The position numbers were made by a program, and so were the translations under genes. DNA of 64,000 nucleotides from Azoarcus sp. (GTDB lineage: Bacteria > Pseudomonadota > Gammaproteobacteria > Burkholderiales > Rhodocyclaceae), in NCBI GenBank assembly GCA_031272995.1, contig JAISSY010000042.1, positions 1-64,000 of the forward strand, in the 5' to 3' direction. Under the pieces are notes generated by a model. The model was given only the letters and a program-made list of their open reading frames with translations, searched no databases and was not told where the DNA came from. How positions within the stretch are numbered: position 1 is the stretch's first letter; every line of letters starts with the position of its first letter. Below are positions 10,741 through 19,363 of this stretch, piece by piece.

Positions 10741-11700
10741 ATGAACGCCGCCGCTTTCCATCTGTTGAACGATTTCCAGCGCGATTTCCCGCTCTGCGCG
10801 CGTCCGTTTGCGCGAATCGGGCAGCGCGTCGGACTCTCCGAGACGCAAGTGCTCGACGAGTACGTCCACCTGCGCCACGAAGGCAAGATTGGTCGCATCG
10901 GCCCGGTGTTCGCGCCGCACTGTTTCGGCGCCTCGACGCTGGCGGCGATGCGCGTGCCGCCCGCCGAACTGGAAGCGACTGCCGCGCGCGTCGACGCCTT
11001 CGCCGCCGTCAATCACGACTACGAACGCGAGCACCGCTGGAATCTGTGGTTCGTCGTCACCGCCGCCGACCGGACACGACTGGTCGCGACGCTGAACGAC
11101 ATTTCGGCCAGCGCCGGACGCCCGCTCATCAGCCTGCCCATCGTGCGGGCGTTTCACGTCGACCTCGGCTTTCCGCTCGACGGCGCGCGCGGCGATGCCC
11201 GGCCGCCGCGCGCGCCGTCGACGGTGACGACGAGCGCGCGCGAACGTCGGCTGGTCGCCGCCCTGCAGGACGGTCTGCCGCTGGAGCCGCGTCCGTTCGC
11301 GCGCGTGGCGGAGCGTGCCGACATGAGCGAAGAAGACACCGTGATACAACTGGCGCGCTGGCTGCACAGCGGCGCGGTGCGGCGCGTCGGCGTGGTGGTG
11401 CGCCACCGCGCCGTCGGCTACGTCGCCAACGCCATGCTGGTGTTCGACGCGCCCGACGACGCCGCCGCGCGCATCGGCGAAGCGCTCGCCGCCGACGGCG
11501 AAGTGTCGCTGTGCTACTTGCGCCGCCGCGCCGCGCCGCACTGGCCTTACAACCTTTTCTGCATGATTCACGGCCACGCGCGCGACGAAGTCGCCGCCGG
11601 CATCGAGCGCCTGCGCGAACGCCACGGCATCGCGCACCTGCGCCACGAAATCCTGTTTTCGCGCCGCTGCTTCAAGCAAACCGGAGCGCGCTATGTCTGA
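10741..11700 (+). CDS. nirD: Siroheme decarboxylase, fused NirD-like and NirL-like AsnC-type domains
   Basis: Two Lrp/AsnC-like halves: REHRWNLWFVV (N-half) and CYLRRRAAPHWPYNLFCMIHG (C-half). Confidence 0.87.
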   Translation: MNAAAFHLLNDFQRDFPLCARPFARIGQRVGLSETQVLDEYVHLRHEGKIGRIGPVFAPHCFGASTLAAMRVPPAELEATAARVDAFAAVNHDYEREHRWNLWFVVTAADRTRLVATLNDISASAGRPLISLPIVRAFHVDLGFPLDGARGDARPPRAPSTVTTSARERRLVAALQDGLPLEPRPFARVAERADMSEEDTVIQLARWLHSGAVRRVGVVVRHRAVGYVANAMLVFDAPDDAAARIGEALAADGEVSLCYLRRRAAPHWPYNLFCMIHGHARDEVAAGIERLRERHGIAHLRHEILFSRRCFKQTGARYV

Positions 11701-12187
11701 ACGCTGGCGCGAACCCGGATTCGACGCGGCGCTCGACGCCATCGACCGTCGCATCGTCGACGCCTTGCAGGAGGGTTTTCCGCTCTGCCCGCGCCCGTAC
11801 GCGGAAGCCGCCGCCCGACTCGGACTCGACGAAGCGGAACTCATCGCCCGTCTCGACGCCCTGTTGGCCAGAAAGGCGCTGACTCGCTTCGGCCCGCTGT
11901 TCCAGATCGAACGCCTCGGCGGCGCTTTCACGCTCGCCGCCCTCAGCGTGCCGGAGGAAGATTGGGAACGGGTCGCCGCCCTGCTCGACGCCATGCCGGA
12001 AGTGGCGCACAACTACCGGCGCGAGCACCGCTGGAATATGTGGTTCGTGGTCGCCGCCGCCTCGGTCGCCGCAGTCGAAGCGACGCTGGCGCGCATCGAG
12101 TCCGCCACCGGACTCGCGGTGCTGGCGCTGCCCAAGGAGAAGGAATATCGCGTCGATATGCGGCTGAAAGTAAGGAGCGCCGCATGA
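11693..12187 (+). CDS. nirG: Siroheme decarboxylase subunit, NirG-like
   Basis: 164 aa AsnC-like; NYRREHRWNMWFVVAAAS. Confidence 0.82.
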   Translation: MSERWREPGFDAALDAIDRRIVDALQEGFPLCPRPYAEAAARLGLDEAELIARLDALLARKALTRFGPLFQIERLGGAFTLAALSVPEEDWERVAALLDAMPEVAHNYRREHRWNMWFVVAAASVAAVEATLARIESATGLAVLALPKEKEYRVDMRLKVRSAA

Positions 12188-16345: not shown

Positions 16346-16420
16346 CTCCCTGTAGTTCAATGGATAGAACGGGCGCCTCCTAAGCGCCAGATGCAGGTTC
16401 GATTCCTGCCGGGGGGACCA
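16346..16420 (+). tRNA. tRNA-Arg (anticodon CCU)
   Basis: Cloverleaf read by eye: acceptor CTCCCTG/CGGGGGG, D-stem GTTC/GAAC, anticodon arm GGCGC-CTCCTAA-GCGCC, T-arm GCAGG-TTCGATT-CCTGC, encoded CCA. Confidence 0.93.
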
Positions 16421-16433
16421 ACGCCATCTTCGA

Positions 16434-16859
16434 TCAAGCCGCGAACAGTTCCATCGGCACATGAAACCGGCGTGCCAACGCTTTTACCTGCCGCAAGTTG
16501 AGAGCGCGTTTGCCGGCAAGAATTTCGGAGATGACGGATTGCGTCCCGACTTCGGGCAAATCGCTCTGAGTGAGTCCCCACTCGGTCATGAGTTCACGCA
16601 GAACCTGATGCGGCGGCAGTTCCGGCATGGGGTGCGCGCGCGTCTCATATTCGTTGACCCGGTCGGCGATGATCGAAACCAGCCCCCAAAGCGGTTCGTT
16701 GGCGTCGTCCGGCAAGGTATCGGCGAGCGATTCCGCGAACTCCGCCAAACGGGCGCAGTGCGCATCGTCGCGAATCGGCGTCGCCAGCCCCAGTGCGTCA
16801 TGCAGCACATACCACGCCTGCGCGATAGCGGCGGAATTGGTCGTGGTTTCAGTGTTCAT
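16434..16859 (-). CDS. HigA-like antitoxin / HTH regulator (orphan)
   Basis: MNTETTTNSAAIAQAW...LTQSDLPEVGTQSVISEILAGKRALNLRQVKALARRFHVPMELFAA; Xre HTH; no HigB-like ORF adjacent. Confidence 0.8.
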   Translation of the reverse strand: MNTETTTNSAAIAQAWYVLHDALGLATPIRDDAHCARLAEFAESLADTLPDDANEPLWGLVSIIADRVNEYETRAHPMPELPPHQVLRELMTEWGLTQSDLPEVGTQSVISEILAGKRALNLRQVKALARRFHVPMELFAA

Positions 16860-16917
16860 TTCCATTGGTAGAACAAACGCCTCCCAAGCTTCTAATGCTG
16901 ATTCGATTTTTGCCAAA
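16850..16917 (+). pseudogene. Degenerate tRNA-Arg(CCU)-like relic
   Basis: 16869-16914 aligns without gaps to the tRNA from the D-arm 3' side through the T-arm: 34/46 identities by hand count; upstream GTTCA and ATTGG also match after a 5-nt insertion. Confidence 0.6.
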
Positions 16918-16920
16918 TTC

Positions 16921-18396
16921 TCAATCGTTCAAACTAATCTCCCAACTATCCAGCGTCGTGCCCTGTATGCGCTCCAGCGTGGCCTGGGCGTTGCGGTAGG
17001 CGACGATGGCGTTGATGCGGGTGGCTTCGGCGTCGCGCAGGGCGGACTCGAAGGCGGGGAGACGGGAGGCGCTGGAGCCGGTGCGTTGCCGTTCGCGCTC
17101 GTTTTCCAGTTTGCGGCGGGCGAGGTCTTGGGCGCGTTGGGCGATTTCGACTTGCCGCCAGCGCGTGTCGAGGGTGCGCACGGCGTCGTTGATGTCGCGC
17201 TCCAGCGCTTGACGGGCTTCGATGAGACGGGTGTTCTCGTTGCGGACGTTGATGCTGGCGCGCGCTTCGCTCTCGCGCGGGCCGGCGTCGCCGATGGGGA
17301 TTTCGATTTGAATGCCGGCGTGGTTCTCGCGGTCGGTGGTGGTGTCGTGGCCGCCGTTGGCGGCGTGGGCGTAGTTGCGCGACTGACGGGCGCCGCCGAC
17401 CAAAGACACGTCCCATTTGCGCTGATCGCGCGCCACGGTGAGATCGACGCGGGCGCGCTCGAAGGCGATGTTCTGGATGAGCCACGCCGGCTGCTGCTCG
17501 CGCGCGGCGCGTAACGCTTGCGCGACGCTGACCTTGACGCGATGGGCGTCGATGGCGTCGACGGCGCGCACGTTCAACTCCAAATCCAGCGCCAGCAGGC
17601 GCAACAGGTGCAGGCGGCAGGCTTCGAGCTGGTTGACCGCTTCCTCGGAGGCCAACTCCTGCTGCGCCACTTCCGCCTCGGCGAGCACGAAATCGACGTC
17701 GTGATAAAACCCGGCGGCGATGAGATGCAGGTTGTCGAACAGCAAGCGGTTCGCCTGCGTCACGGCCTGACGGGCAAGGCGCTCCTGTTCCTGCGCGCGC
17801 AGCAGATCGTTGTAGGCGACGACGATTTCCGTCACCGCATTGGCGACGGCGGCCTTCAACTTGAGGCGGTTCATCTGGTCGGTCATTTCCGCCTTGCGCA
17901 ACGGCGCGGTGACCACCTCGCGACTGGCGCCGCGCAACAGCGGTTGCACGACGGTGAAGGAGGCGCCGTCGTTGCGGTTGTAGCCGACCAGTCCGCCCTG
18001 CGTGATGCGGTTGTCGTAGGAGAGGCTGAACTTGGTGCCGTATTCGCTTTGCAGCGTCGCGGTCGGCTTGATTTCGGTGAGGCTGAAATAATCGTCGCCC
18101 TCGGTCTGGTTGGCGACGTGGCGGCTGCTGACCGAGAAGCGCGGCGAGAAGATGTCGCTGGCCTGTTTCAGTTCCTGCTTCTGCGCGGCGCGTTCGAGAT
18201 AGGCGCTGCGGATGGCGCCATTGTTGGCGAGTCCGATGAACACCGCGTCGGCGAGGCGCAGGGCGACTTCCACGCCGTCGAGCGCCACCGGTTCGCCGGG
18301 CATGGTCGGGCGCGCAACGTCCGCCGCGACGGCAGGCGCGAGGCACGCGGTCAAAAACAGACAGCCAGCGAAGCTGCGGAGGCGAAATCGGGGCAT
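16921..18396 (-). CDS. TolC-family outer membrane efflux protein
   Basis: Signal peptide MPRFRLRSFAGCLFLTACLAPAVAA; long coiled-coil pattern; DARRTLDTRWRQVEIA-like repeat halves typical of OEP. Confidence 0.8.
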   Translation of the reverse strand: MPRFRLRSFAGCLFLTACLAPAVAADVARPTMPGEPVALDGVEVALRLADAVFIGLANNGAIRSAYLERAAQKQELKQASDIFSPRFSVSSRHVANQTEGDDYFSLTEIKPTATLQSEYGTKFSLSYDNRITQGGLVGYNRNDGASFTVVQPLLRGASREVVTAPLRKAEMTDQMNRLKLKAAVANAVTEIVVAYNDLLRAQEQERLARQAVTQANRLLFDNLHLIAAGFYHDVDFVLAEAEVAQQELASEEAVNQLEACRLHLLRLLALDLELNVRAVDAIDAHRVKVSVAQALRAAREQQPAWLIQNIAFERARVDLTVARDQRKWDVSLVGGARQSRNYAHAANGGHDTTTDRENHAGIQIEIPIGDAGPRESEARASINVRNENTRLIEARQALERDINDAVRTLDTRWRQVEIAQRAQDLARRKLENERERQRTGSSASRLPAFESALRDAEATRINAIVAYRNAQATLERIQGTTLDSWEISLND

Positions 18397-18523
18397 CGCG
18401 CGGGTCTTTTGGTGATATGACGCGAATTCAAACGACACGGGGAAGAAACCATTGGCGTATTTAACATTCCGGACGGAACTCCGACAAGGACTGACGGCAT
18501 GAAATAAAGTTTCAGCACACCCC

Positions 18524-18550
18524 TTGAAATCCTTGAAACCGCCCCAATGT
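18524..18550 (+). promoter_or_regulatory. Sigma32 (heat-shock)-type promoter of grpE
   Basis: CTTGAAA (18524-18530), 12-nt spacer, CCCCAATG (18543-18550); about 43 nt upstream of the grpE start. Confidence 0.8.
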
Positions 18551-18592
18551 GCGCGTCCTCGCATTTCAAGACGAAAGAGGGAACCCTTGTCC

Positions 18593-19363
18593 ATGCCGCC
18601 AGACCGTCCCAATCCCGCCGCGCAGGCCGGCGCCGTGCCGCCGCCGCCGCCCGGTCAGGAACAAGCGCCGCTGTCGAACCCGCTCTCCGGGGACGCCGAC
18701 AGCGGCGGAATCAAAATCACCGGCCAATCCCGCCCCGCGCCGGACGCGCAAACGCCGCCCGCGCCACCCGCTCCCGAAGCCGCCGCTCCCGCGCCCGAAG
18801 CCGCCGCGCCCGCCACCTCCGCTTCCGAAACCGTCGCCGCGCCCGTCGAGGAGCAGCCTCTGCTGACGCCGGCGGAGCAAAACGTCGACCTCACCATCAA
18901 GCTCATCGAGGCCGAAGGGCGCATCGCCGAAGCCGAGGCGCAGGCCGCCGAACAGCGCGACGCGTGGTTGCGCGCCAAGGCGGAAACCGAGAACGTGCGC
19001 CGCCGCGCGCAGGAGGAAGTGGCCAAGACCGCCAAGTTCGCCAGCGAGAAGTTCGCCGGCACCATGCTGCCGGTGAAGGACGCGCTGGAAGCGGCGCTCG
19101 CCATCGAAAACCAGACGCTGGAAAAACTGCGCGAAGGGGTCGAACTGACGCTCAAGCAACTCGTCGCCGCCTTCGAGAGCGCCGGGTTGCGCGAGGAAAA
19201 CCCGCTCGGCCAGAAATTCGACCCCAACAAGCATCAGGCCATCGGCGCGCTCGAATCCGACGCCGAACCGAACACCGTCATCGACGTGCTGCAGAAAGGC
19301 TATCTGCTCCACGAGCGTGTCATACGACCGGCCATGGTCATGGTTGCGCGCGCCAAGGCTTGA
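18593..19363 (+). CDS. grpE: Nucleotide exchange factor GrpE with long Pro/Ala-rich N-terminus
   Basis: [91 protein letters not shown]. Confidence 0.94.

Follow-up and report, generated by a model that had tools for sequence, protein, structure and literature searches.

The window analysed here is a stretch of DNA of 64,000 nucleotides from Azoarcus sp., and the locus under study lies between a tRNA gene and the 3′ end of a gene for a TolC-like efflux protein. Its features are as follows.

16346..16420, plus strand: intact tRNA-Arg(CCU) (ARAGORN; Rfam RF00005, 63.4 bits)
16434..16859, minus strand: orphan higA-like antitoxin gene, 141 aa from the ATG at 16859 (HTH_3; phmmer; relatives)
16856..16864, minus strand: tail of a lost higB, TGGAAATGA (Trp-Lys-stop) (upstream-region alignment with G019, G014, G009 and others)
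16860..16914, plus strand: decayed fragment of a tRNA interior, spanning tRNA positions 11-65 from the D-arm to the T-stem
16921..18612, minus strand: gene for a TolC-like outer membrane efflux protein (Pfam OEP, 1.9e-30)

By both ARAGORN and Rfam, tRNA-Arg(CCU) is the sole tRNA in the window. A first-pass annotation had placed the end of this tRNA at 16420 and the stop codon of the higA-like gene 13 nt away; ARAGORN, Rfam and the open reading frames bear out both positions, with the stop codon at 16434-16436. Read antisense, the anticodon arm of the tRNA (16346-16420) spells AGGAGG, and inverted copies of it thus carry a Shine-Dalgarno motif. The tolC gene is directly upstream of higA on the same strand, and 6 nt separate the tRNA-like fragment from the tolC stop codon. 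Besides the ATG at 16859, alternative in-frame starts of higA are present at ATG 16865 and TTG 16916. The HigB tail overlaps the higA start codon, in the same arrangement as in relatives.

An orphan antitoxin gene and its empty sites

The higA product carries a Pfam HTH_3 domain and is matched by phmmer to the solved HigA antitoxins 5ifg/5ycl (E=1.7e-12); by both domain and sequence it is a HigA antitoxin. The closest HigA proteins are those of G019 (77% identity) and G014 (72% identity), and both adjoin HigB. In these two genomes an intact HigB_toxin (PF09907) gene ends in the codons TGG AAA TGA, which overlap the higA ATG. The Azoarcus sp. and Zoogloeaceae MAG sets that carry the closest HigA proteins presumably come from termite guts. 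Searches with HigA among viruses, phages and plasmids revealed no close source, yielding one short viral-contig match and plasmid matches that were nearly all below 60% identity.

Upstream of the window's higA, just TGGAAATGA of HigB is left, followed by the tRNA-like stretch, and the adjacent HigB toxin gene expected of a HigBA system is therefore missing. No HigB is encoded anywhere in the 64 kb window, and the sole PF09907 gene in the assembly (contig 14, C14) is paired with a different HigA, which is 27% identical. The description of the antitoxin as an orphan in the first-pass annotation agrees with these results. Because only the last codons of HigB remain where the paired relatives have the whole gene, the toxin was deleted. 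The assembly, a draft of 189 contigs, is 93% complete and might therefore lack a cognate higB located far away in the genome.

Orphan higA genes are also present in two other genomes. In G009 (L037 1513-1914, G009:C56) 17 HigB codons are left, and in G022 (L038 1498-1902, G022:C7) the KDWK-stop of HigB is left, so that toxin-first loss recurs in this family of HigBA pairs. Additionally, HigB (3e-24) and HigA (2e-11) score against the PADLOC models PD-Lambda-2 A and B (window 16434-16916, L035 1914-2219), and these defence models therefore detect HigBA-like pairs as well.

On the contigs examined, tRNA-Arg(CCU) stands beside a tolC homologue in 3 of 22 genomes of the genus, namely the window's own, G001 and G010. 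The distance from the end of the tRNA to the TolC stop codon is 18 nt in G001, with neither higA nor the fragment, and about 110 nt in G010, where a terminator-like hairpin is found with no gene and no fragment. The segment had been described as foreign to its site, with a comparison of the tRNA-Arg(CCU) locus in relatives proposed as the check; the cassette of about 500 bp is indeed absent at these two empty sites. Because both are empty, higA and the fragment were probably inserted as a cassette in the window's lineage, two clean losses being the less likely alternative. In G005 (L035 1331-2219, G005:C71), an intact higBA of another subgroup is convergent to tRNA-Arg(CCU). Given a different spacing and a HigA of 60% identity, this is probably an independent insertion at tRNA-Arg(CCU), and it may be a hint of some mechanism that draws such cassettes to the site.

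Nature and source of the tRNA-like fragment

The fragment at 16860-16914 forms an ungapped direct repeat with 16356-16410 at a spacing of 504, with 40 of 55 positions identical. An earlier hand count of 34/46 over a shorter stretch is exact on recomputation, and the ungapped match extends further, to 55 nt. Its first bases, TTCCA (16860-16864), are equally readable on the minus strand as part of the lost-higB tail TGGAAATGA. Local alignment of the fragment with tRNA-Arg(CCU) gives a score of 25, whereas the highest score is 15 both among 300 dinucleotide shuffles of the region and among 2000 shuffled tRNAs. A score of 15 is also what the second-best site of the 64 kb window reaches, and the top score of the genome's own tRNA set against shuffled DNA is 17. 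The tRNA likeness of the fragment is well above chance, and the worry that an alignment this good might be common in shuffled sequence is not confirmed. A chance origin of the 46-nt similarity could appeal to an identity of merely 73% and to the resemblance of part of the stretch to the G014 higA 3′ end (score 17), but with shuffle maxima of 15-17 against a score of 25, and with the higA resemblance weaker and resting largely on the ATGGAAATG motif, we give it almost no credence.

The resemblance to higA was observed between 16857-16900 of the window and the 3′ end of the G014 gene (L033 1870-1914). It is weak and centred on ATGGAAATG, although its score was reached by 0 of 1000 shuffles for that single target. 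The resemblance was judged a likely coincidence, given that the alignment is ATGGAAATG-centred, requires a gap and falls short of the match to the tRNA.

Pairing is retained at 3/4 positions of the D stem, 3/5 of the anticodon stem and 4/5 of the T stem (one G-U). The acceptor half is absent; at the acceptor 3′ strand and CCA, 2/10 bases are kept, a retention with P=0.0008 if this part had diverged like the remaining fragment. The fragment does not make the complete cloverleaf of a functional tRNA gene, ARAGORN does not call it as a tRNA and an Rfam search of it gives no tRNA match even at E<=10, all in keeping with the first-pass judgement that the relic is not a functional tRNA. The same judgement had taken both the anticodon and T stems to be broken, which is correct for the anticodon stem, whereas the T stem is mostly kept. 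Relative to tRNA-Arg, 10 of the 15 substitutions are G/C to A/T, a bias that a decaying copy would show. A search for the fragment in the remaining 21 genomes of the genus gave nothing beyond chance-level matches to short pieces, and the regions downstream of tolC homologues in other genus genomes hold no tRNA-like sequence except the intact tRNA-Arg(CCU) of G001 and G010. The 46 nt are accordingly absent from these relatives, rather than being ordinary upstream sequence conserved among them.

The choice of parent tRNA is a close one. Among the genome's own tRNAs, which were gathered through genome searches (38 found in the assembly), tRNA-Gly(TCC) matches the fragment with a score of 24 (35/46) and tRNA-Arg(CCU) with a score of 25; over the same 52 columns the counts are 36/52 for Gly(TCC) and 37/52 for Arg(CCU). 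The assignment to the same tRNA made in the earlier reading is thus favoured, with Gly(TCC) nearly equal. A tRNA of the Gly TCC or CCC type with no tie to the adjacent tRNA-Arg, which might have come along with the cassette or been an old tRNA neighbour, would fit the fragment's anticodon triplet, CCC. A tRNA-Gly(CCC), carried by several members of the genus and lacking in several others, is not among the 38 tRNAs found. We regard such a source as unlikely, given that the T-arm and flank (ATGC.G.TTCGATT..TGCC) agree with Arg(CCU) and not with Gly, that the best match among all tRNAs compared is the Arg(CCU) of a relative (38/52), and that the presumed Arg(CCU) parent is 0.5 kb away in direct orientation. 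On account of the T-arm side and the position, the neighbouring tRNA-Arg(CCU) is the most likely parent of the fragment.

The displaced tRNA fragment of integrated islands is normally the 3′ end, from the anticodon or T-loop to the CCA. For example, in G031, a genome of the same family, a 9.8 kb element is integrated at tRNA-Arg(CCU) (L158 2077-11985, G031:C1), with an intact tRNA, a 3′-terminal 47-nt tRNA copy and a tyrosine integrase at 10795-11853. When an element integrates into a tRNA gene, it is a fragment of the tRNA end that is split off, and Islander accepts neither internal tRNA fragments nor candidates that are below 2 kb or have no integrase (PMC4383910). In the window, the match covers tRNA positions 11-65 and is not a displaced end fragment, and between tRNA-Arg(CCU) and the fragment the higA-like ORF is the sole recognised gene, with no integrase.

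Could the fragment nevertheless be the displaced attachment-site half of an island that targeted tRNA-Arg(CCU) and was then reduced to one antitoxin gene? The fragment lies in direct orientation on the 3′ side of the intact tRNA with foreign cargo between them, the insert is absent from G001 and G010, and the same tRNA gene is used by the real island in G031. Set against this, the fragment is internal, includes the D-arm and is without the 3′ end (2/10, P=0.0008), whereas in G031 the copy is canonical and comprises the 3′ 47 nt; the integrase is absent, the insert is below 0.5 kb, and the pattern is one that is rejected under Islander rules (PMC4383910). We consider an island origin improbable, and leave it some weight because a 3′-end copy might have decayed extremely. 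The 'footprint of tRNA-targeted integration' proposed in the first-pass annotation is not supported on these points, and the locus is not recognisable as the scar of an island that targets tRNAs.

Retention and expression of higA

The dN/dS of higA is 0.10-0.13 against G019 and G014, and that of the paired genes against each other is 0.105. Differences by codon position (30/18/68) have a third-position excess. Synonymous distances are saturated, so that this estimate of selection averages in time before the toxin was lost. Assuming an exact copy at toxin loss and neutral drift (distance 0.34), higA should have taken approximately 4.3 nonsense hits and has 0, the expectation resting on the assumed timing of fragment copying. 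The codon-level comparison shows higA to be intact and, by its substitution pattern, under purifying selection, and HigA would seem to be still in use.

There are possible explanations for how the gene is expressed. The first-pass annotation had offered the fragment as an antitoxin promoter or operator, a proposal without sequence support: a promoter and terminator scan at the fragment found nothing on the minus strand, where no sigma-70-like site is present, and no operator-like inverted repeats were found at the fragment. As higA immediately follows tolC in the same orientation and the minus strand has no promoter-like site there, read-through from tolC is the simplest source of transcript, and higA is probably expressed and translated via this mRNA. 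One further hypothesis is that the fragment has been kept since its minus-strand anticodon arm gives higA a ribosome-binding site (GGGAGG) after coupled toxin loss. Antisense tRNA-Arg(CCU) has AGGAGG and the decayed copy retains GGGAGG, upstream of ATG 16865, with a predicted pairing to the anti-Shine-Dalgarno of -10.2 kcal/mol that 4% of shuffles equal; additionally, higA in relatives begins within the higB stop codon. The distance from GGGAGG to ATG 16865 is about 14 nt, above the optimal spacing, and the motif is inherent to any antisense copy of tRNA-Arg(CCU), so that finding it proves nothing by itself. Retention for this purpose strikes us as very unlikely, and slighter still is the chance that a tRNA-Arg(CCU) copy was captured as a translation-initiation element, rescuing higA expression after coupled deletion of the toxin.

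An anti-addiction role is commonly proposed for orphan antitoxins (PMC7354431). HigA here may be a solitary HigA-fold DNA-binding protein or an antitoxin that could neutralise incoming related HigB.

Proposed history and known systems

The history that we favour begins with the insertion of a type II HigB-HigA pair between tRNA-Arg(CCU) and the tolC-like 3′ end in the window's lineage, as the two empty sites show. The higB gene was then deleted down to the last codons overlapping the higA start, which is shown by the paired relatives. The internal tRNA piece at the junction, most likely a copy of tRNA-Arg(CCU) and now decayed, most likely arose without an integrase, when the insertion or deletion was accompanied by template switching or illegitimate recombination. 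HigA has stayed intact under purifying selection, its mRNA probably being read-through from tolC. An intermediate genome that would order the higBA insertion, the tRNA copying and the toxin deletion was not found. We hold this account as a whole, from higBA insertion and toxin loss to an illegitimate tRNA-fragment junction and a retained, selected higA, to be moderately probable.

The locus is a tidy but ordinary gene-decay scar, a new example of the known orphan antitoxin together with a tRNA fragment at an illegitimate junction. Through the empty sites and the paired relatives, it shows the reduction of a toxin-antitoxin cassette to a lone antitoxin that is apparently still selected. It also calls for caution, as an integration footprint cannot be called from a tRNA plus a tRNA-like fragment alone. 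A functional antitoxin could shield the cell from related incoming HigB toxins.

Much like the paired HigA proteins of the same genus, which belong to type II HigBA systems (PF09907 with an HTH antitoxin), the window's HigA has a start that overlaps the HigB stop, and it differs from them in that the toxin gene is gone save for its last codons. As with other orphan antitoxins (PMC7354431), an intact solitary antitoxin is left from a former pair, but here a tRNA-like fragment is present at the deletion junction. The arrangement of a tRNA and a direct tRNA-like fragment around foreign DNA is likewise that of tRNA-integrated islands (Islander, PMC4383910; L158 in G031), from which the window differs in its internal fragment without the tRNA 3′ end, its lack of an integrase and its size below 0.5 kb.
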